Shown here: in pieces, positions 7,755 to 26,571 of the stretch
Layout of the letters: every line of letters begins with the position of its first letter
How positions within the stretch are numbered: the stretch's first letter is position 1
NCBI GenBank assembly: GCA_947302655.1
Contig: CAMYVW010000004.1
Span: 1-39,782 of the forward strand
From: an uncultured Mycoplasmatota bacterium
GTDB lineage: Bacteria; Bacillota_I; Bacilli_A; RF39; UBA660
Direction: 5' to 3'
Length of the DNA stretch: 39,782 bases
The notes under the pieces: generated by a model
What the model was told of the DNA's origin: nothing
The model's database searches: none
What the model saw: only the letters and a program-made list of their open reading frames with translations
Translations under genes and position numbers: made by a program

Positions 7755-8423
7755 ATGGCTAAAGTACGTTTAGGTAATGCTACTTTCGTTGAACGTGGAT
7801 ATGGTCAAGTTGAGCCGAATCATCTTTCTGCTCAAAGAACTGGTCAGATTTATGCTCAGTTACCAGTCGCTGAAGATATTAACCTTCTTGAAAATGGACA
7901 GTTTGTAAAATATGATTATCCAAATGAAGTTGTTAATTTTTCTGGCAAAGGCGAATGGATGTTAGTCTTCAACGAAGTAAAAGTTTATCGTGATGGACAG
8001 TCTGATTGCGATTTCGCAATGATTAGAGATAATTATGTCGCTCGTATTTATAGTCCTAAAGACGGTACAAAAATGGAACAAATTACAGATGCTAGAGATT
8101 ATAGCGCTGTAGTTACTCCTGCAGATCCATATGAAATTGATTCTACAGCTAATCCATTTAGAGAGTTTTATGACTATGCTGGTCCAAAGAAAATGCCAGA
8201 GAGCACAAAGATGGTTCCTCGTGTTTTCAAGACAAACGTTGGCGATATTTATACAACTAACTGCTTAATGGCAGATGCAGATCCTGCTCTTGGAGATACT
8301 TTCAAAGTTGGTGATGATGGATATCTTACAGCTGGTGAAAGTGACGACATGACTTGGGAAGTTGTAAAATTATACGATCTTGGTGATCGTCAAAAAGCTG
8401 TAAAGCTTATGAGAATTAAATAA
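7755..8423 (+). CDS. Probable capsid decoration or minor head protein
   Basis: 222 residues, ribosome site GGAGGAG. The sequence is beta-rich, with no membrane or catalytic motif: VRLGNATFVERGYGQVEPNH, then GEWMLVFNEVKVYRDGQ, and a C-terminal small domain GDTFKVGDDGYLTAGESDDMTWEVVKLYDLGD. Between scaffold and major capsid genes, phages usually place a head decoration or stabilising protein, and this one shares the richer codon choice of the capsid gene (more GCT, TTC, AAC and CGT), suggesting high expression. Its stop overlaps a small upstream ATG of the capsid frame. The role is inferred from position. Confidence 0.65.
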   Translation: MAKVRLGNATFVERGYGQVEPNHLSAQRTGQIYAQLPVAEDINLLENGQFVKYDYPNEVVNFSGKGEWMLVFNEVKVYRDGQSDCDFAMIRDNYVARIYSPKDGTKMEQITDARDYSAVVTPADPYEIDSTANPFREFYDYAGPKKMPESTKMVPRVFKTNVGDIYTTNCLMADADPALGDTFKVGDDGYLTAGESDDMTWEVVKLYDLGDRQKAVKLMRIK

Positions 8424-8440: not shown

Positions 8441-9550
8441 ATGTTGTTAAAGACTGAAGATTTTGTAAAGCTTGCAAAGATTGCAGCTAAGGCTAAACCT
8501 TCTACTCCTGTAGCTTATAGCTTTAATGGAGAGAACTTTAGCTACGACGAAGTTCAGGAAACATTACGTGCTCAGTTCGCTGAGTTAGCTCCTGACTATC
8601 GTGGATATAGAGAAAATAAGAATACTATTTTCCGTATTATTGAAGAAACTCTTTCTGAAATCGTTCCAGCAAGAGTTAAAGAAAATTATGAGCAGTTCGC
8701 AGAAGTTAAGCGTTATGCTCAAGGCGAAAAGCCTATTTTCCGTAGAAAAACTAACGTTCATAACCGTAATCGTGGTAAGCAGTTCGTAACACGTGTTGGA
8801 CTTGCTGGTATCTACGAAGTTTGGAAACTCGGTTCTGCACAAGAGAGCTTTGAAGTTCCTACTTCTGCTATCGGTGGTGCAGCTCAGATTGGATTTGAAG
8901 AATTCCTTGATGGTCGTGTTGACTGGGCTGAACTCGTAAATATTCTTTATGAAGCAATTGATGATTTAATCTTTGAAGAAATCGGTGCTGCTCTTGCTGA
9001 AGGTATGAATCAGCTTCCTGCTACTCATAAGGTAGTATCTGCTGGATTCGACGAAGCTACATTTGATGCTCTTCTTAATAGCGCAAAAATGTATGGTAAT
9101 GTTACTATTTACTGCACAAATGAATTTGCTGTTAAGATGATTCCGCAAGAAGCTTGGAGATACACAGAAGCTATGAAGGATGAACTTTATAGAACTGGTC
9201 GTTTAAGCGGATATAAGGGTGAAAAGGTTGTTATTCTTCCTAACTCTTATAAGAATGCTTTCGAAAAGGAAAAAGTTATTGATCCTGCATTCTGCTGGAT
9301 TGTTCCTTCTTCTGCTGATCAAAAACCGGTTAAGGTTGCTTTCGAAGGAGATCTTTATACTAATGAATTCGAAAACTATGATTGGTCTAGAGACATTCAT
9401 ATGTATGAAAAAGTTGGTGTTGTTTGCATGATGGATAATGCTATTCATGTATTTAAGGATGAAAGTCTTTCTAAGGAAGGTCCATTCGTTCTTAACGATA
9501 CTGTTGCTAATCATGTAATCGTTGACAATCTTGGTAACCAGGGAAATTAG
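8441..9550 (+). CDS. Major capsid protein
   Basis: 369 residues. ATG 8441 is preferred over the in-frame ATG 8423 because AAAGGAG (8426-8432) lies between them, 8 bases before 8441. The sequence is of HK97-fold capsid type: an N-terminal helical arm (LLKTEDFVKLAKIAAKAK), a basic segment KPIFRRKTNVHNRNRGK, GFEEFLDGRVDWAELVNILYEAIDDLIFEEIGAALAEG like the spine helix region, and YEKVGVVCMMDNAIHVFKDE near the end. Codon use differs from neighbours, with more C-ending codons, as expected for the most abundant virion protein. The stop codon TAG sits directly after a possible -1 slippery heptamer, so an extended form fused to the Ig-like product (498 residues) is likely. Confidence 0.88.
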   Translation: MLLKTEDFVKLAKIAAKAKPSTPVAYSFNGENFSYDEVQETLRAQFAELAPDYRGYRENKNTIFRIIEETLSEIVPARVKENYEQFAEVKRYAQGEKPIFRRKTNVHNRNRGKQFVTRVGLAGIYEVWKLGSAQESFEVPTSAIGGAAQIGFEEFLDGRVDWAELVNILYEAIDDLIFEEIGAALAEGMNQLPATHKVVSAGFDEATFDALLNSAKMYGNVTIYCTNEFAVKMIPQEAWRYTEAMKDELYRTGRLSGYKGEKVVILPNSYKNAFEKEKVIDPAFCWIVPSSADQKPVKVAFEGDLYTNEFENYDWSRDIHMYEKVGVVCMMDNAIHVFKDESLSKEGPFVLNDTVANHVIVDNLGNQGN

Positions 9551-9582
9551 TGAGCGTAACTGCAAGTAAACTTGCTACCGCT
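9541..9582 (+). promoter_or_regulatory. Candidate programmed -1 frameshift signal at capsid stop
   Basis: Capsid codons end CAG GGA AAT TAG. The heptamer G GGA AAT (9541-9547) is in X XXY YYZ register and close to the lambda G/GT site GGGAAAG. Five bases on begins a stem-loop: AGCG 9553-9556 with CGCT 9579-9582, TA/TA, then GCAAG 9562-9566 with CTTGC 9571-9575 and loop TAAA, with a 3-base and a 1-base bulge. The -1 frame continues TTA GTG AGC GTA into the Ig-like gene without a stop. Confidence 0.6.
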
Positions 9583-9936
9583 CCTGATGATGCTAATAAG
9601 ACTCAGTCTCAAGCAAATCAGGACGCAGTTACAGTGACACAAAGTGGTAATACTATCACTATTTCTGGTAGCATGAACAATTTAAATAGTTATGCTTCCA
9701 CTAATTCACAACAAGGTAGTGGTAAATGGATTGGTCTTGATATGAATTCCGGACTTGACTCAATTGTTGGTGTTAAATGGGGAGATTCTTACACAATGGA
9801 TGAATCTGATGTAGCAGAAGCTAATTCAGTTAATTTACCAGCGGGTCATTTCATATTCTGGGTAAAAGCAGAAGATCTTCCAAGAACTATTAAAGTGAAT
9901 GATGTTGAATACACTATTGTATTCCAAGAAGCATAA
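9550..9936 (+). CDS. Ig-like head protein, likely C-terminal extension of capsid
   Basis: 128 residues if started at GTG 9550, which overlaps the capsid stop TAG by one base. The only upstream ribosome-site resemblance is AGGGA at 9540-9544, much weaker than elsewhere in this operon. The protein is beta-rich: DAVTVTQSGNTITISGSM, KWIGLDMNSGL, a WG..YTMDESDVAEA segment, LPAGHFIFWVKAEDLP and a closing strand VEYTIVFQEA, which reads like an Ig-like or decoration domain that binds the capsid surface or cell polysaccharide. It lies in the -1 frame relative to the capsid, consistent with production as a frameshift fusion adding 129 residues. Independent translation by coupling remains possible. Confidence 0.7.
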   Translation: MSVTASKLATAPDDANKTQSQANQDAVTVTQSGNTITISGSMNNLNSYASTNSQQGSGKWIGLDMNSGLDSIVGVKWGDSYTMDESDVAEANSVNLPAGHFIFWVKAEDLPRTIKVNDVEYTIVFQEA

Positions 9937-9971: not shown

Positions 9972-10010
9972 AGGGGAGAATGGGGAAGTTCCCCTTCTCC
10001 CCTCTTTTTT
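9972..10010 (+). terminator. Strong rho-independent terminator after the capsid block
   Basis: Stem AGGGGAGAA (9972-9980), one bulged T, GGGG (9982-9985), loop AAGTT, CCCC (9991-9994), TTCTCCCCT (9995-10003), then C and six T. This is the most GC-rich stem in the window. It falls right after the capsid and Ig-like genes, and no promoter is recognisable between it and the next gene, so downstream genes may depend on read-through. Confidence 0.9.
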
Positions 10011-16815: not shown

Positions 16816-16848
16816 CAAAATTTGGAGAGAAAGGAGCGAATAAAAGGT

Positions 16849-19800
16849 ATGCCTAAACAATTAAATGTAAATCTTGCTTTTACAGCAGATACGGAAGCAG
16901 CTAAAAAGCAAATTTTAGAATTGCAAAAGGCTTTACAAGCAGTGGCAATGATGCCAAGTAAATCTTCTGCTTTATTTGATGATAAACAATTAAAAAATGC
17001 CAGTAAAGCAGCTATGGAATTACAAAAACATTTACAAGCTGCTGTAAATGTAAATACTGGACAATTAGATTTATCTAGATTATCAACTAGTTTAGCTGCA
17101 TCTAATAAAGATTTAAAAACTTATGTTAATACATTGATGCAAGCTGGTTCAGTAGGACAAAATGCATTTATGCAATTGGCAAAAACTGTTTCTACCGCTG
17201 AAGCTCCTATTACAAGAGTTAATGCTCGTTTAGCAGAAATGGGAACCACTTTAAAAAATACTGTAAGATGGCAATTATCTTCTAGTATTTTACATGGTTT
17301 TATAGGTTCTGTACAAGCAGCTTATGGATATGCTCAAGATTTAAATCAATCTTTAAATAATATTAGAATTGTTACTGGAGCTAGTGTTGGTGAAATGGCT
17401 GCTTTTGCAGAAAAAGCTAATTATGCAGCCAAAGCTTTAAGTACAACAACAACTAGTTATACTGATGCTGCATTGATTTATTATCAACAGGGTATTCGTG
17501 ATCAAGAAGAAATAGCCGGTAGAACTGAAACAACTATTAAATTAGCTAATGTTTCACGACAAAGTGCGGAAGAAGTTTCTCAGCAAATGACCGCTATTTG
17601 GAATAACTTTTATGATGGATCTAAAAGTCTTGAATATTATGCCGATGCAATTACTGCTTTAGGTGCATCTACAGCATCCAGTTCTGCAGAAATTGCAGCA
17701 GGTCTTGAAAAATTTGCGGCTATAGCTGATACGGTCGGATTATCTTATGAATATGCAACTGCGGCCATGGCTACAATTACTGCTCAAACGCGTCAAAGTG
17801 CAGATACTGTAGGTACTGGTTTAAGAACATTATTTAGTAGATTAGAAGGTTTAAAATTAGGAGAAACTCTTGAAGATGGGGTTGATTTAAATAAATATTC
17901 TAAGGCTCTTGAAACAGTAGGTGTGCAGGTATTAGATCTTAACGGTGAAATTCGAGATATGGATAGTATTCTTGATGATTTAGGAAATCGTTGGGATGAA
18001 TTAACGCAAGCACAAAAAATAGCACTTGCACAAACTGTAGGTGGTGTTCGACAATATACTAATTTAATTGCTCTTATGGATAATTGGGACAAAATGCAGG
18101 CTAACGTATTAACTGCTCAAGGTTCTGAGGGAACTCTCCAAGAGCAAGCTGATATTTATGCTGAATCCTGGGAAGCGGCACAAAAACGAGTTAAAGCTGC
18201 CGCGCAATCTATTTATGCTGATTTATTTGATGATAAATTTTTTATTACATTAACTGATGGTTTAGCTAAATTAATTGATACTATTAGTGGTATTACGAAA
18301 GGATTTGGAGGATTACAAGGTGTTTTATTAGCTGTTGGTTCAATATTTTTACAAAAATATGCATATGAAATGCCAGCTGCTTTAGAAAATTTTAAACAAA
18401 ATTTAATGGTATTCACTGGTCAAGCAAAAACTGAAATGATAAAAATGCAAGATCAGATGACTGATAATCTTAATAGAATTAAAAATGATCCTTCTACTTC
18501 TTCTGTTGGAAAAATTCAAGCTGAGGGTTATGCTGAAGTTATTAAAATGAGGCAACAATTACTTCAACAAAGTAATACAATGAGTCAAGCTCAACAAGAT
18601 GAATATAAAAGACAAATAGAATTAGTTCAATCTGGATATGATGAAGTTCAAGCAATTCAAGAAAAAATTAATGCTAAACAAAAAGAAATTGCTGTTACAG
18701 AACAGGCTATTCAAGCAAAAGCAAAAGAACAGGCGGCTAATTTAGTATCTGAACAAAGTGATTTATATCAAGCTAGACTTGGTTGGGAAAATAAACGTAG
18801 TCAAATAACAGATGATAATTCATTAGGTACAGAAGATAAAGCTGCTCGTTTACGAGATATTGACAGTGAAATTGATAAAATTGATGTTAAATTAGGAGTT
18901 ATTGAACCAAAGCTTCAAAATCTTGGTAATAGCATGGGTAAAGGTGCAAAAGATTTTAAAGATGCTATGTTAGATGTTACTAATGCCAGTACAGCAGAAG
19001 AAAAATTAAGAATGTTAAAAAATGTTGCTGATATGGCAGGTGAAGCAATTGGTAAAATAGCGGAAAAATATACTGATCAAACTAAACGTGCTGTGGCTAT
19101 TGAAAATATGGTATCAAGTATTCGGAGCCAAGCCGATGCTTGGAAAACTGATACTATTGCTATGGAAAATAATAGCGCAGCAGTTGATAGTATGAAACAA
19201 AAAATGGATGCTTATCTTGAATCTTTACGTCAGCAGGGTCAAGAACAGAATATTAATAAAACTTTTATACGAGATTTAGATGAATTAAAAAATAAATTAC
19301 AAGAAGTAAATAGTCCAGAAGGTTTGCAAAAGATTGCTGATATGTTTAAAAACTTAGGAGGAGATGCTGAATTATCTTTAACGGGATTAAGTCAACATTT
19401 AGAGCAATTAGAAAAACAATTATTAGAATTAGGTATAGATCCAAGTGCTTTAAATAATTACAGAAAAGAAGTAGAACACTTAGCTCAAGATATAACTAAT
19501 ATGGGCAATACTTTAGAAAATACTCGAGGTCAAGTTAATAGTTTTGAAAAAGGTTTAACTGCGAATAGTGTTGTACTAACAAAATTTGCTTCAACAACTA
19601 TGGCTGTTTATAATGTTATTAATACAATTAATAATGCATTTAAAACTTTTGGAGATGAAAATGCTACAGCTTTACAAAAAGTTGGGGCCGCGATGAGTAT
19701 TTTAATGTCTGTTACAATGGCTTATAATCAAATTTCTTCTTTAGCAACAGCTTTACAAACATCTAAAATTGGATTATATATTATGGAACAAGGTGCTATT

Positions 19801-22800
19801 GAAGGAACAACTGTTGCTCAATGGGGTTTAAATGTTGCTATGGAAGCTAATCCTATAGGTTTAGTTATTGCAGCAGTTACTGCATTAATTGCGGTTTTGG
19901 CAATTTTAATTGGTAGTATTACAGCAATTACTAATTATATGCAACGTTATGATAATGCAATTAAGGATGCTTCTAAAACTTTAGAAGAATTAACTAAAAA
20001 AGAAGAAGAGGCTCGACAAAATGCTGATAATTTACGTTCTTCTATTGATAAATATGATTCTTGTGTAGAGAAATTAAAAAATTGTACCAAAGGAACTAAA
20101 GAATGGCGAGATGCTTTAAAAGAAACTGGTACAAGTGCTTTAGAAGTAATAGATCAGGTCGATGAATTTTTAAGCAATGAAGATTATAACAAATTATTAC
20201 AAGAATATAAAGAAAAAGGTACTTTAAATGCTGATATTTTACAATCTGCTACAAATCAAGCCGATATACAAGCTGGACAAGCATTACTTGCAAAATCATT
20301 AGGAGAATATAAAGTAACAGAAGCTAAACTAAATAAAGAAATCGCAGAGTTACGTCATGATATAGATAGTTCTACAGATTCAAATTATGATAATGAACAA
20401 TTAGAATCTGTTCTTAAGAATAATTTATCTGATTTAAGTGAAGCATTAGATGCTCAAGATTTAAGAAAAAAATTACAAAAATTAGGAATGGATGTTTCTA
20501 GCGTAAGTGATGCAACAATAGATGAATGGTTAGTAAACATTCGAACAATGTCTAATACAGCATTGGGTGCAGCTCAAAAATTAGGATTAATTGCTCAAAT
20601 TACTGTAGACGAATATACCGCAGGAACTGGAGCTTCAGAAGAGAGTAAAGATTTTGCAACTCATGTATTAACCAATGAAGCTATAGCATCTCAAGACTAT
20701 TGGCTTAAGATTGCTGAAGGTGCAGCAAGTAATCATCCACAAAGTAGAGCTTTAGAAAAACAATTAATAGAAGCATATAGTGAAGCAACGGGAGTTAATT
20801 TTTCCGTAAGAAATGGTATTCAGTGGAATGATGGAAAATTACATTGGCAAGATGAACAAGGTAATAAATATAATTTAGCTCCAGAAACAATAGCCGCAAT
20901 AAATGCAGCTGCAGATGCTGAAAATGGTATTAATCGAGCCATTGAAAAAGCTAATGAATTAATGGCTAATATGGTTGGAGAAAATGAAAACTTAGCTAAA
21001 TCTATTGATTTAAATGAACAAGGTAATATTAATGTTGATAAATATGTAGGTCAACTTTCTAAAAGCGTTATAGAAAATGCTAAAGATAAAACAGGAGATG
21101 AATTATTAGAAGCTTTACTTTTAGATCCAGAACAAGTAGATAAAATTGCAGAAGCTTATGGAACTGATAGAGATACTATTATAAATGCTTTGGTGGCAAG
21201 TGTTAAAAACAGTGCTAATACATATGATCAATTAGGAGAAGATTTAGCAGAACCAATTAAAGATACTTTCCAAAAAATGATGGCTGCAGCTGGAGATATT
21301 AGTTTAGAAGATGCTCAAAAAATGGAGGCTCAGTTAAAAAAGATATATGTTGATTCTGGTGGAAAAATGGATGTTGTTAATACCTATGCTAATTTTATGG
21401 AAAAATTGGGTAAAGATGCTCCTGAATTTCAAGAAGCTCTTGATGGTATAGATTGGAAACATGCAGATATTCAAGATTTAACTGATATTTTTGATCAATT
21501 AGGCATTGAAACAGAATTTAGCACAGAAGAATTATCAAAATTTTTACAGGTAATGAGATTTGTTCGTCCAGAAAATTCTCAATCTCCAGAAGAGCAATAT
21601 AAAGCAGTATCAAGTGTTACAAAAGGATTATCTACTGGAGATATAATTTCTAGTAGTGATTATGATCTTTTAGAACAATACGGTCTTGGGGATTTTTTTA
21701 AACAAACAGCGGATGAAGAATATATGTTAATGGCTAGTAGTGAAGATTTACAAGCCGCATTAAAAAATACAGGAGCTGAATTTGGAGGATTTATAGAGCG
21801 TCTTAATGATTTAAATCTTCAATTAATGTTAATGAATCAATGGCAAGAGAAAGGTCTTCATTATGAAGATTTTGAAGGAGAACAGCAAGTAGGTTCATCT
21901 GGATTTGATACTCAACTTCAAGCTGTTAATACTTTTTCAACAGAGTCTGGTATAGATGCTGAAACATTAGCTGCTATTAATGCTGGTGATTACAGTCCTG
22001 ATAATCTTGATGCTTTAGTTACTGCTTATGGAAATTTAAAAGATGTTCTTGGTGATGATGTTATTGAAGATAGTATTAGAAATATTACCGAAGAAGAAAA
22101 ACAACGAGAAGAACAAATGAAAACCTCTGCGGCTGCAGAAGATGTAAATATAGAAAATGTTCAACAATATAGTAAATTTTTAAAAGAAGAAGCTGATAAT
22201 TTAGATTGGATTAATGATGAATTAGCTGATAATGAAGAAGCTATTTTAGGAGTTGCTGTTGCTTGGGAAGATGCTATTGAAGGTATTGAAAAAATTCAAA
22301 AAGAATGGAAAAATTGGAATAAACAAGGATTACAAACTCCAGAAGTATTAGGTGAAATGACTGATGTTTTATCTGATATGTTTAATATGGATGTTAGTAA
22401 TGATTTTGTTACTGAACATTTAGAAGAAATTCAGCGTTTAGCCGAAGGAGATATGTCAGCCATTGATGATTTAGGATTAGCCTTAGCACAAAATACAATG
22501 TTACAAGATATTCCAATTGGTTTTGATCAAGAAGAATGGAATAATCAAGTAGAAGGTATATTTAATGATATTGATAGTTTTGGATTGGAAAATATTGAAG
22601 TTGGTGCTAAAATTGAAGATGCTCCTTTCTATGATGGTTTGGAAACCATGTTTTTAAATGCTCAAACTGCTGAAGAAGATATTAATAATGTTTTAGGTGG
22701 TATTGGTTATGATCCAAAAGTAACTATGGAGACTGTTACAATTGATAGTGTACAACAAAGTGATAGTGATGGATCATATCAAATTACTTATACTGGATTA

Positions 22801-25800
22801 GATGGTAGCGTTCAAACTGCAACAGTAGATGAAAATTTTGCTAATAGTCATAAACAAGGTGATACTATTACAATTCCACACATTGAAGGTAGTACATTTA
22901 CAGGACGAGCTAAAGGCGCTGGACACTCTGGCCGCACAGGTGGTGGCGGAGGAGGTGGCGGTGGTCGTCGAAGAGGCGGAGGCCGCAGAGCTGAACGTAA
23001 TCGTCAAGCAAAAAAACCAACCGATCAAAAAGAGCGTTATCATGTATTAAATAATCAACTTCAAGATATTAATGCACAATTAAAGAAAATTGATACTGCT
23101 TATGATCGAGCTTTTGGAACCGCAAAAATAAAGTTATTAGATCAACAGATTGCTAAACAAAAACAATTAGTAGCAAAACAAAGAGAATATTTAGCGGAAG
23201 TTAGAAAAAATTATAATTTAGATAAGCAAAATTTAGCTAGTTCTGGTACAAAGCAATTTTGGAGTGAAACAGATCAAAAATTAAAAACTGTAAATGCTAG
23301 TGCTAATTATTTAGGTATGGGTTTACAGTTTGATAATAATGGTACTTTATTAAATTATGATCAATTAGTGGCTGCTAATGTTGCTGCTTACAATGCCGCA
23401 GTAGATAAATTTAATAAAGCTAAAACTGATGATAAAGCTGCTAAACGAGCATTTGAAATTGCCAGTGCTCAATATGAAGGATTTAATGAATTATTAAAAC
23501 AATATGAAGAAACTCAAGATTTATTAGCACAAAAAGAACAAGAGGTAATCGATGCTCAAAATGCAGTTTATGATAAGCTTTTAGAAAAAACTCAATTAGT
23601 TGTTCAATTAAAAATTGATGTAGAAGAAGATAGTTTAAATTTACTTAATTTCTTATTAGAACGACTTCAAGATAATGCTTATGCTGCAGCTCAAAAAATT
23701 TCTTATTTAGGAGATAAATTAACATCTACAACAAAGAAAATTGATGCATATAAACAAGGATTAGTTGATATATTTAATAATCATGATTTAAATGGTAATA
23801 ATATAATTAATCAAATGATGGCTGGAACTATTAAACCAGATGAAGTATTAAAACAAATGGAAAATACTGGTAATACTTTTACTGAAAATGAAGCAAAAGC
23901 AATTCGTGATTATACTACTGGCATTTTAGACCAAATGGCTGAAGCAGAAAATCTTCGTAAAGAAACTATTGGACAAATTGGAATGGTTATGGATGCTAAT
24001 ATTAAAAAATTAGATAAAATAGCTGATAAAATCAATGCTTTAAAAAATATGACTGCTTCATATAAAAATTTAGTTGATTTAACTGGAAGAGAATATTTAA
24101 AAATTACATCTACAATGTATGACGAAATAGAAAAAACTAATGTTCAATTAGCAACTCAAGAAACTAATTTTGCTCGTCAAAGAAAAGATCAAGCCGAAGC
24201 TCAATATACTCATTTAAAAGAACAATATGAAAGTATAAAAGATACTTTAAGTGAAGAAAGACGAGTTGATTGGGAGCAACAGTTAGATGAGGCTAAAAAA
24301 TATGCAGATGAAATGACTGATAACTATTATTCAACATGGGAAAATGCAATTGAAGCAGTTACAACTAGATTTGAATCTGCTATGAAAAATATGGCTGAAG
24401 ATTTTAGTAAAATAATGGCTGGAGCTGCTGGAAATTTAGAGGGATTACAAGAAAGATTTGATTTAAAAGAAAAAATTAAAGAGACTTTTGTTCCAGAATA
24501 TGAAAAAATGTATCAATTAACTAAATTGACTCGTGATGCTCAAAAGAAAATTGATGAATCAAGTAATTTAAAAGTAAAACAAGAATTACAAAGAGTACAA
24601 CAAAAGATTTTAGATGCTCGAAATAGTGAGGTTAAATTAAGTCAATACGAATTAGATTATTTACAGAGAGAGTTAGATTTAAAAGCTGCTCAATTAGCTT
24701 TAGAAGAAGCTTCTAGAATAAAAAGTCAAGTTCGTATGACTAGAGATAGTGAAGGTAATTATTCTTATGTATATACTGCTGATGAACAAGCAGTTGAAGA
24801 AGCAGAACAAGAATATAGTGATAAATTATATGAAATGCAGAGATTAAATGAAGAATATATTCAAGAATTACAATCACAATTATTAGGTTTAGAGCAAGAT
24901 TATATTGATGCTATGCAAGAAGCTGCTGATATTTATGGAATTGGAACTACAGAATATTATGAAGCTATTCAAAATATTCAAGCTGATTATCAAGAATATT
25001 TTGAAGCTTTAAATGAAGAATTAAATTTAGCTTTAGAAAATCAAACAGAAGTATCTACTCTTCATGCTGAATTATATGTTCAATTAACAGGTGATGTTTA
25101 TCAAGCTAATGTAGATTTAATAACTTCTTGGGATGAAACTATGTTAGCTGCATTAACTGGTTATGAATCAATGGCTGAATATGAACAAGTTTGGGCAGAT
25201 GCAACAAGAGATGTTTATAATGCTGCAACTGACGCAGCTTTAACTTGGGAACAAGATTTAGAAAATGTTTATGATGCAGCCGAGGTAAAAATAGATGATT
25301 TTACCGATAAAGCAGTAAATGATTTACAAACTATACAAGATCAAAATAGTGATTTAACACAAGAAATTACAACTACTATGGGTGAAGTTTCGACTTCAAT
25401 TACTTCAGTAATTGATACAGTAGTAGAATGGGAAAATCAATATACTAAAACAGTAGAAAATATGTTAAATTGGAATACAAAATTAGTAGAAAGTTTTAAT
25501 TCTTTATTAGCCGCTTGGTCTGGCGTAAAAGCAGCGGCTGAAAAACCTGCTGATCAATCTGGATCTAGCTCTAGAGGTAGTGGACGTAGAAGTGGTGGTA
25601 GTAGTAGAGGCAGAGGCAGAGGCAGAGGTAGAGGTAGTAGAGGCAGAGGTAGTGGTAGTAGAGGTAGTGGTAGCAGAGGCGGTAGTGGTAGTAATGCTAG
25701 AGCTATAGCTCGACAAGTAGTTAATAGAACAGTACGAGATTTAACAAAAGTTAAAAATATTATAACTAAAAAAGGTGGGGGTTGTTTTGATGCTGGAACT

Positions 25801-26571
25801 AAAATTACTATGGCTGATGGATCTGTCAAAAATATTGAAAATGTAATGATTGGTGATTTTGTTTTAAGTTATAATATTAATATACAACAATTTATTGCTG
25901 AAAAAGTTACTGGAACATTAATACATTATAATACTATTAATATGTTAGATATTTCTTTAGAAGATGGTTCTCATTTAGGTATTACTAATACGCACCCTAT
26001 TTATACTACTGAAGGATGGGTATCTGAAGATATTTTAGGATCTTGGCGAGAACATAATGTTCATACTCATCCAATTAAAATTGGTCAATATATATTTGGA
26101 CAACATGGTTTAACTAAAATTAAACAAATTAATCATAGACCAGATATAGCAAATTATACTACTTATAACTTAACAGTAGAAAATACACATGCTTATATTG
26201 CTAATGGCCAATTAGTTCATAATATGAAATCTAGATTTGACACTGGAGGATATACTGGTGATTGGTCTGGTAAAGAAGGTAAAATAGCTATTTTACACTC
26301 TAAAGAATTAGTTTTAAATCAAAGTGATACTGAAAATTTATTAAAAACTGTTGGTATTATTAGAAGTATTTCACAAACTATAGATTTAAACGCATTATCA
26401 TCTAGTGGAGCTTTTAATAATTTAATTGCACCTTCTACAATAGGTAATGCAAGTTCTTTAGAACAAGATGTACATATTACTGCAGAATTTCCAAATGTTA
26501 CTGATCGAAATGAAATTTTAGCAGCATTTGATAATGTAATTAATTTAGCTTCTCAATATGCAAATAGATAA
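16849..26571 (+). CDS. Tail tape measure protein with embedded Hint domain
   Basis: About 3240 residues; ATG 16849 is chosen over the in-frame TTG 16822, with AAAGGAG about 12 bases upstream. The tape measure sets tail length and is ejected with the DNA. Domains: residues about 135-350 TP901-type tape measure core (NNIRIVTGASVGEMAAFA and onward); long coiled coils; a membrane-like helix pair around 1001-1030 (PIGLVIAAVTALIAVLAILI); a Gly/Arg linker 2025-2047; a second coiled-coil half opening KERYHVLNNQLQDINAQLKK; an Arg/Gly/Ser linker 2905-2949; a Hint domain 2979-3125; and the family's C-terminal segment RFDTGGYTGDW with GKIAILHSKELVLNQSDT. At about 0.15 nm per residue it predicts a tail near 0.45-0.49 micrometres. 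Confidence 0.95.
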   Translation: MPKQLNVNLAFTADTEAAKKQILELQKALQAVAMMPSKSSALFDDKQLKNASKAAMELQKHLQAAVNVNTGQLDLSRLSTSLAASNKDLKTYVNTLMQAGSVGQNAFMQLAKTVSTAEAPITRVNARLAEMGTTLKNTVRWQLSSSILHGFIGSVQAAYGYAQDLNQSLNNIRIVTGASVGEMAAFAEKANYAAKALSTTTTSYTDAALIYYQQGIRDQEEIAGRTETTIKLANVSRQSAEEVSQQMTAIWNNFYDGSKSLEYYADAITALGASTASSSAEIAAGLEKFAAIADTVGLSYEYATAAMATITAQTRQSADTVGTGLRTLFSRLEGLKLGETLEDGVDLNKYSKALETVGVQVLDLNGEIRDMDSILDDLGNRWDELTQAQKIALAQTVGGVRQYTNLIALMDNWDKMQANVLTAQGSEGTLQEQADIYAESWEAAQKRVKAAAQSIYADLFDDKFFITLTDGLAKLIDTISGITKGFGGLQGVLLAVGSIFLQKYAYEMPAALENFKQNLMVFTGQAKTEMIKMQDQMTDNLNRIKNDPSTSSVGKIQAEGYAEVIKMRQQLLQQSNTMSQAQQDEYKRQIELVQSGYDEVQAIQEKINAKQKEIAVTEQAIQAKAKEQAANLVSEQSDLYQARLGWENKRSQITDDNSLGTEDKAARLRDIDSEIDKIDVKLGVIEPKLQNLGNSMGKGAKDFKDAMLDVTNASTAEEKLRMLKNVADMAGEAIGKIAEKYTDQTKRAVAIENMVSSIRSQADAWKTDTIAMENNSAAVDSMKQKMDAYLESLRQQGQEQNINKTFIRDLDELKNKLQEVNSPEGLQKIADMFKNLGGDAELSLTGLSQHLEQLEKQLLELGIDPSALNNYRKEVEHLAQDITNMGNTLENTRGQVNSFEKGLTANSVVLTKFASTTMAVYNVINTINNAFKTFGDENATALQKVGAAMSILMSVTMAYNQISSLATALQTSKIGLYIMEQGAIEGTTVAQWGLNVAMEANPIGLVIAAVTALIAVLAILIGSITAITNYMQRYDNAIKDASKTLEELTKKEEEARQNADNLRSSIDKYDSCVEKLKNCTKGTKEWRDALKETGTSALEVIDQVDEFLSNEDYNKLLQEYKEKGTLNADILQSATNQADIQAGQALLAKSLGEYKVTEAKLNKEIAELRHDIDSSTDSNYDNEQLESVLKNNLSDLSEALDAQDLRKKLQKLGMDVSSVSDATIDEWLVNIRTMSNTALGAAQKLGLIAQITVDEYTAGTGASEESKDFATHVLTNEAIASQDYWLKIAEGAASNHPQSRALEKQLIEAYSEATGVNFSVRNGIQWNDGKLHWQDEQGNKYNLAPETIAAINAAADAENGINRAIEKANELMANMVGENENLAKSIDLNEQGNINVDKYVGQLSKSVIENAKDKTGDELLEALLLDPEQVDKIAEAYGTDRDTIINALVASVKNSANTYDQLGEDLAEPIKDTFQKMMAAAGDISLEDAQKMEAQLKKIYVDSGGKMDVVNTYANFMEKLGKDAPEFQEALDGIDWKHADIQDLTDIFDQLGIETEFSTEELSKFLQVMRFVRPENSQSPEEQYKAVSSVTKGLSTGDIISSSDYDLLEQYGLGDFFKQTADEEYMLMASSEDLQAALKNTGAEFGGFIERLNDLNLQLMLMNQWQEKGLHYEDFEGEQQVGSSGFDTQLQAVNTFSTESGIDAETLAAINAGDYSPDNLDALVTAYGNLKDVLGDDVIEDSIRNITEEEKQREEQMKTSAAAEDVNIENVQQYSKFLKEEADNLDWINDELADNEEAILGVAVAWEDAIEGIEKIQKEWKNWNKQGLQTPEVLGEMTDVLSDMFNMDVSNDFVTEHLEEIQRLAEGDMSAIDDLGLALAQNTMLQDIPIGFDQEEWNNQVEGIFNDIDSFGLENIEVGAKIEDAPFYDGLETMFLNAQTAEEDINNVLGGIGYDPKVTMETVTIDSVQQSDSDGSYQITYTGLDGSVQTATVDENFANSHKQGDTITIPHIEGSTFTGRAKGAGHSGRTGGGGGGGGGRRRGGGRRAERNRQAKKPTDQKERYHVLNNQLQDINAQLKKIDTAYDRAFGTAKIKLLDQQIAKQKQLVAKQREYLAEVRKNYNLDKQNLASSGTKQFWSETDQKLKTVNASANYLGMGLQFDNNGTLLNYDQLVAANVAAYNAAVDKFNKAKTDDKAAKRAFEIASAQYEGFNELLKQYEETQDLLAQKEQEVIDAQNAVYDKLLEKTQLVVQLKIDVEEDSLNLLNFLLERLQDNAYAAAQKISYLGDKLTSTTKKIDAYKQGLVDIFNNHDLNGNNIINQMMAGTIKPDEVLKQMENTGNTFTENEAKAIRDYTTGILDQMAEAENLRKETIGQIGMVMDANIKKLDKIADKINALKNMTASYKNLVDLTGREYLKITSTMYDEIEKTNVQLATQETNFARQRKDQAEAQYTHLKEQYESIKDTLSEERRVDWEQQLDEAKKYADEMTDNYYSTWENAIEAVTTRFESAMKNMAEDFSKIMAGAAGNLEGLQERFDLKEKIKETFVPEYEKMYQLTKLTRDAQKKIDESSNLKVKQELQRVQQKILDARNSEVKLSQYELDYLQRELDLKAAQLALEEASRIKSQVRMTRDSEGNYSYVYTADEQAVEEAEQEYSDKLYEMQRLNEEYIQELQSQLLGLEQDYIDAMQEAADIYGIGTTEYYEAIQNIQADYQEYFEALNEELNLALENQTEVSTLHAELYVQLTGDVYQANVDLITSWDETMLAALTGYESMAEYEQVWADATRDVYNAATDAALTWEQDLENVYDAAEVKIDDFTDKAVNDLQTIQDQNSDLTQEITTTMGEVSTSITSVIDTVVEWENQYTKTVENMLNWNTKLVESFNSLLAAWSGVKAAAEKPADQSGSSSRGSGRRSGGSSRGRGRGRGRGSRGRGSGSRGSGSRGGSGSNARAIARQVVNRTVRDLTKVKNIITKKGGGCFDAGTKITMADGSVKNIENVMIGDFVLSYNINIQQFIAEKVTGTLIHYNTINMLDISLEDGSHLGITNTHPIYTTEGWVSEDILGSWREHNVHTHPIKIGQYIFGQHGLTKIKQINHRPDIANYTTYNLTVENTHAYIANGQLVHNMKSRFDTGGYTGDWSGKEGKIAILHSKELVLNQSDTENLLKTVGIIRSISQTIDLNALSSSGAFNNLIAPSTIGNASSLEQDVHITAEFPNVTDRNEILAAFDNVINLASQYANR
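22921..22989 (+). other. Gly/Arg-rich linker in the tape measure
   Basis: Residues 2025-2047 of the tape measure include nine consecutive Gly (2031-2039) followed by RRRGGGRR. The segment separates the N-terminal half from a second coiled-coil half and should be flexible and strongly positive. Local GC content is far above its surroundings. Confidence 0.8.
25561..25695 (+). repeat. Degenerate RG/SG triplet repeat coding an Arg/Gly/Ser linker
   Basis: Imperfect tandem AGAGGC, AGAGGT and AGTGGT units encode residues 2905-2949 of the tape measure, with repeated RG, SRG and GSG units resembling an RGG low-complexity tract. It lies 29 residues before the Hint domain. Such slippery repeats tend to vary in copy number between relatives. 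Confidence 0.8.
25783..26223 (+). other. Hint (intein/BIL-type) domain within tape measure
   Basis: Residues 2979-3125 (147 residues) carry all self-processing landmarks. Block A is CFDAGTKITMADGSVKNIEN with the N-terminal Cys at 2979 after KKGGG. Block B is the ITNTHPIYTTEGW segment with the T-x-x-H motif. Block F is TTYNLTVENTHAYIANGQLV. The terminal His-Asn is at 3124-3125. The next residue is Met, not Cys, Ser or Thr, so it matches A-type bacterial intein-like (BIL) domains rather than standard inteins. No homing endonuclease is inserted. Expected chemistry is cleavage at the Cys and/or after Asn, perhaps with ligation; which occurs cannot be read from sequence. Confidence 0.88.

Follow-up and report, generated by a model that had tools for sequence, protein, structure and literature searches.

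Analysis of a 39,782-nt stretch of DNA (hereafter, the window) indicated that some copies of the capsid protein of the phage encoded there very probably carry an additional C-terminal domain, gained by -1 frameshifting at a slip site directly adjacent to the capsid stop codon. The window lies within a 1.04-Mb genome bin and contains the head–tail gene block of a Bacillota-type phage. A capsid–domain fusion of this kind had been proposed in an earlier note on this DNA and is strongly supported by the survey of relatives, in which the domain always lies in the -1 frame, mostly lacks a start codon, and is tied to the presence of a slip heptamer. The features of the region are as follows:

8441..9550, + strand: major capsid protein gene (phrog_4088, E value 1e-58); the ORF opens at 8423
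9541..9547, + strand: putative slip heptamer G_GGA_AAT, an X_XXY_YYZ in phase with the capsid frame (G 9541, GGA 9542–9544, AAT 9545–9547)
9548..9550, + strand: capsid stop codon TAG, directly 3' of the heptamer
9548..9586, + strand: bulged hairpin after the slip site (MFE -14.3, z -4.4), a candidate stimulator in the window phage only
9550..9552, + strand: GTG overlapping TAG, where translation of a free domain might reinitiate (ribosome site -4.9 kcal/mol)
9550..9936, + strand: -1 frame ORF of 128 aa, predicted to encode the C-terminal extension (AF2 model: two helices and a beta-sandwich, Ig-like at best)
9973..10010, + strand: terminator-like hairpin with a T-run, closing the capsid/domain unit and forming the right border of the cassette

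Capsid Gene and Putative Slip Site

The gene order in the window is portal (phrog_2739), probable protease, and capsid. The real start of the capsid gene is probably ATG 8441, because its ribosome site (-10.7 kcal/mol) is far stronger than that of 8423 (-2.7 kcal/mol). The AF2 model of the protein, of moderate confidence (pLDDT 72.8), matched HK97-fold encapsulins and phage capsids (Foldseek probability 1.00; best E value, 4e-7). Homologues are found in phAss-1 and Enterococcus phage EF1 and, at 25–28%, in SPbeta-like and Bacillus phages, and the homologue of Bacillus phage PJN02 carries the annotation major capsid protein. As judged from the structure model, the upstream gene product is an HK97-fold major capsid protein.

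The capsid gene ends in CAG GGA AAT TAG (9539–9550, + strand), which places GGGAAAT in slip register with the adjacent stop codon, as the earlier note had read it. The -1 frame (GGG AAA TTA GTG AGC ...) is open into the domain gene as far as the TAA at 9934–9936, also in agreement with that note. Another -1 frame TAA lies just 5' of CCA GGG AAA TTA; therefore, any shift is confined to about 12 nt. GGGAAAN occurs seven times on the + strand of the whole window, so the heptamer by itself is not rare; its position adjoining a stop codon before an open -1 frame is. Counted from ATG 8441, the predicted fusion has the previously stated length of 498 aa (369 + 1 + 128), with the predicted transframe stretch ...NQG[K/N]LVSVTASK... 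and the transframe peptides NQGKLVSVTASK or NQGNLVSVTASK. The ribosome site of GTG 9550 is weak, as had also been claimed: its energy is equaled or bettered by 17.7% of random positions, whereas most neighboring genes have sites of -8 to -13. Recoding of TAG was considered as well and is unlikely in the window phage, because its long late genes contain no internal TAG and two of its genes end in TAG.

In the favored reading, the 128-codon ORF belongs with the capsid gene to a single recoded gene. The majority of ribosomes would end at TAG 9548 and release the 369-aa capsid protein, while some would shift by -1 on G_GGA_AAT, with the Gly and Asn tRNAs re-pairing on GGG AAA. The slow 3' stop codon would aid the slip, as might the adjoining hairpin in the window phage. 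Ribosomes that slipped would read on in the -1 frame to give a 498-aa capsid subunit with an extra beta-sandwich domain, and this extended form would presumably account for a minority of capsid copies. The added domain would sit on a flexible C-terminal linker and most likely be shown outside the head. The sequences themselves show the frame, the association with the heptamer, the lack of starts, the selection, and the turnover of the cassette; we infer the slippage itself, its efficiency, the virion incorporation, the surface display, and any binding role.

Junctions in Related Phages

Contigs from IMG/VR and from genomes were scanned, which yielded more than 100 capsid-family loci and several dozen domain-family loci. 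Every capsid junction was read automatically and, with the addition of L067, 15 distinct domain-bearing junctions were obtained. The domain frame was -1 in all 15, and the -1 frame of the window ran uninterrupted from the heptamer into the conserved coding region. The homologous domain protein also begins at the shift point. No ATG, GTG, or TTG was present at the domain N-terminus in 13 of the 15 junctions, the exceptions being the window and L020; the TTG of L008, L014, L022, and L079 is a leucine codon inside the conserved SKL/NKL.

An in-phase X_XXY_YYZ was found in 11 of the 15 domain junctions, 10 times at the stop codon and once one codon before it. It takes two forms, G_GGA_AAY and A_AAC_CCT, both of which fit the X_XXY_YYZ pattern. 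G_GGA_AAT lies against the stop codon in the window, L008, L023, L073, and L079; G_GGA_AAC lies against it in L078 and one codon before it in L001; and A_AAC_CCT lies against it in L031, L055, L056, and L067. The L067 contig ends about 73 nt past A_AAC_CCT, and the domain N-terminus follows in the -1 frame. The heptamer conservation that the earlier note had named as a check in relatives extends to these junctions but not to the other four: L014 and L022 have GGGG followed by TAG, L049 has GGGCAAT, and L020 has no heptamer and a GTG that overlaps the stop codon with a good ribosome site (-8.8). Relatives that keep the gene and lose the heptamer, a pattern that the note had held to count against its reading, are thus seen in part. 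The main awkward case is L049, the nearest relative of the window in the capsid tree, which has no clear slip site and no standard start; its site may be unusual, its domain may start at ATT, or the junction may have decayed recently or been misassembled.

In the more distant relative L185, the domain is likewise in the -1 frame, an ATG overlaps the stop codon (TTTTTAATGAG), and a five-T run precedes it. L200 (=L085) and L208 (=L083) carry an unrelated capsid family, phrog_544, followed by the domain in the -1 frame. The domain N-terminus of these two loci has no ATG, GTG, or TTG, and no standard heptamer was seen on inspection by eye, which may point to a recoding site not yet described in the phrog_544 sequences. 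The domain is absent from 13 relatives of their capsid gene.

In-frame TAG codons were observed in the capsid-family loci L004, L005, L002, L035, L160, L166, L078, L031/L076, and L055. Several are at glutamine positions, so those relatives probably read TAG as Gln, while TAG is a stop in the window phage. The TAG-containing close relatives of the window phage share 77–81% capsid identity with it and below.

The bulged stem-loop described in the earlier note is present in the window, where its stability is matched by 7 of 2423 coding windows (the most stable 0.3%), but conservation and covariation are absent in relatives. When the 15 junctions were folded, the window alone gave a strong structure and L073 a moderate one, and the others formed little; no general 3' hairpin emerged across them, with pair counts not above those of shuffles and no covariation. 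An Rfam search returned nothing near the gathering score. The hairpin at 9548–9586 may help frameshifting in the window phage, and on the sequences compared, the shared elements of the family are the heptamer and the adjacent stop, not the hairpin. This suggests that, where a stop codon lies against the heptamer, downstream structure need not be conserved.

Association of the heptamer with the domain was analyzed in 75 distinct capsid proteins, 15 with and 60 without the domain. A heptamer no more than three codons from the stop was present in 11 of the 15 with the domain versus 1 of the 60 without it (Fisher p = 3e-9 across the 75 proteins, ignoring relatedness), and directly at the stop in 0 of the 60. 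The sole domain-less heptamer, in L144, is CCCAAAG one codon before the stop, and the -1 frame there is closed immediately. The capsid tree required at least 12 state changes for the domain and at least 10 for the heptamer. Of nine independent comparisons, all on supported branches, seven had the heptamer going with the domain, none had it going against the domain, and two showed no difference (median p = 0.016).

Sister phages with 79–95% identical capsid DNA differ by a whole cassette, and the domain-less sister is without the heptamer. In these pairs, the cassette is flanked on one side by a variable linker and on the other by a terminator-like hairpin that is conserved. A G/C-rich hairpin with a T-run, like that at 9973–10010, is kept 3' of the capsid gene throughout the family, whether the domain is present or absent, and in domain-less sisters a similar hairpin stands directly 3' of the capsid stop. 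By these comparisons, slip site, stop, and domain make up a cassette that related phages have gained and lost. A further proposal, possible but tentative, is that the stop-adjacent slip site belongs to a transferable capsid-decoration cassette and that recoding, rather than in-frame fusion, would be inherited to keep the decorated subunit rare. The nearest domain-less relatives, L003–L006, have an in-frame C-terminal capsid extension of approximately 40 aa with KTYY-type motif ends.

The Downstream Domain

AF2 gave a confident model of the 128-aa domain (pLDDT 94.7), a beta-sandwich with two helices. The earlier note had called the domain Ig-like; the beta-sandwich agrees with this, but searches of Pfam, PHROG, and fold libraries returned no significant family and no Pfam Ig match. 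Several top PDB rows in the fold searches were Ig domains, with E values of at least 0.12 and VIA Z scores of at most 5.2. "Ig-like" is therefore kept as a plausible working label, because Ig domains rank high but never significantly and no good Pfam or PHROG match exists.

No isolated phage bearing the domain was found by tblastn, and the domain was absent near the capsid gene in phAss-1, EF1, PJN02, and MT836163. Other homologues make up the C-terminal portion of 210–250 aa proteins with a phrog_12102 N-terminus, one of which also matches the head fibre protein phrog_14753. The occurrence of the domain on head-fibre-like proteins favors a function at the head surface. Weak homologues were also noticed in the family of the host bacterium, inside open frames of 844–1312 aa (L060, L061, and L062), and some of these genomes hold several copies.

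Selection between domain homologues was purifying, with dN/dS values of 0.08–0.29 in full-length pairs; the partial pair L055/L056, whose last part is unaligned near a contig end, gave 0.65. Since start-less domains are under purifying selection, they are most likely expressed, and frameshifting would be the simplest route. Fewer synonymous differences were observed in the first 20 post-slip codons than in the whole domain in L008/L079 and L014/L022, on few counts, which is a hint of an overlapping signal; no such deficit was seen in L023/L073.

Alternative Readings and Known Systems

The window itself has a GTG at the domain start, which speaks against frameshifting as the best explanation, as do the junctions without a standard heptamer (L049, L014/L022, and L020) and the lack of conservation of the hairpin. 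Termination followed by reinitiation only, with a restart at GTG 9550 (TAGTG) that releases the domain as a small decoration protein of its own, would account for the start codons overlapping the stop in the window, L020, and L185; start–stop overlaps are common coupling sites, and several start-less relatives have ATT or ACG at that place, which are weak near-cognate starts. Yet the start is not conserved. The overlapping GTG is confined to the window and L020 among the 15 junctions, and its position is occupied by ATT in L049, GCC in L001, ACG in L023, L073, and L008, and GTA/GCA in L014/L022. Reinitiation also leaves the in-phase X_XXY_YYZ that accompanies the domain unexplained, and the GTG of the window has a weak ribosome site, so this reading is considered unlikely. 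Both routes could operate together, with frameshifting giving the fusion and reinitiation at GTG some free domain, which would refine the frameshift reading rather than exclude it. The joint presence of heptamer and GTG in the window favors such a combination, but the nearest relatives are without the GTG, which may be merely a valine codon at a V/I/T/A position, and we regard the combination as rather doubtful.

Another reading, in which the downstream ORF is an unexpressed in-frame extension that has decayed or been wrongly assembled, would suit L049, with neither slip site nor standard start, but is very improbable given the purifying selection, the same frame in many independent assemblies, and the joint occurrence of domain and heptamer across the tree. 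A -1 product arising from transcriptional slippage instead of ribosomal frameshifting is compatible with the sequence alone. Three identical bases are a short run for polymerase slippage, for which codon phase is irrelevant; the runs here (GGG AAA and AAA CCC) are of that length and are kept in codon phase, which makes this explanation extremely improbable.

The original survey of frameshift-added Ig-like extensions is reportedly that of Fraser et al. 2006. The addition of such extensions to phage capsid proteins by frameshifting is established for T3 and A2 (PMC5009743), in line with what the earlier note had stated for phage structural proteins. In T3 gp10B and the major head protein of Lactobacillus phage A2, as proposed for the family described here, a -1 shift near the capsid gene end gives a second product with a C-terminal beta-sandwich, and the module is mobile between phages. 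In contrast to T3 and A2, the capsid here belongs to an unrelated family (phrog_4088) of large Bacillota/gut phages (phAss-1 and Enterococcus EF1; distantly, SPbeta-like phages), the heptamer is directly against the stop and of two types, and the domain has no Pfam Ig match. The paper on phAss-1 makes no mention of frameshifting (PMC10607447).

Similar sites are known elsewhere. The -1 shift site of the archaeal virus HCTV-1 is G_GGA_AAC (PMC5009743). The lambda G/GT tail-chaperone site (G_GGA_AAG) shares the first six bases and, as proposed here, the -1 shift and two products from one start, whereas here the last base is T or C, a stop is adjacent, and the product is expected in the virion. 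The coat genes of A118/A500 use -1 shifting and that of PSA +1 shifting (PMC5009743); PSA also lengthens structural proteins by recoding, and its tail site has an adjacent stop codon, but its shifts are +1 and those proposed here -1. In the head-fibre-like proteins, the same C-terminal domain family occurs on a probable head surface protein, but there it follows a separate N-terminal region in the same reading frame, with no recoding. "Shifty stops" were described long ago, and systems such as that of pea enation mosaic virus are known in which a stop near the shift site matters (PMC5009743); the adjacent stop may promote the slip in this family. Slipperiness in E. coli is higher for A_AAA_AAG than for A_AAA_AAC (PMC5009743), so an A-site Asn codon is not among the most slippery choices, which counts against the site.

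It has been proposed that the out-of-frame arrival of mobile domains is accidental and that frameshifting then preserves them (PMC5009743). The sequences of the window family fit the known picture of frameshift-added capsid domains and add a detailed natural series, in which sisters with and without the cassette amount to a natural comparative experiment. With them, the known range of such domains would come to include a large group of uncultivated phages of the gut and rumen, some of which probably read TAG as glutamine. Because most of these ORFs are without a start codon, annotation based on start codons misses such domains. Elsewhere in the window, a tape-measure-like protein of 3249 aa (ORF 16822–26571) has a Hint/intein-type domain near its C-terminus (window 25600–26568; PF01079; E value, 6e-10), and a Met after the terminal HN makes ordinary splicing doubtful.
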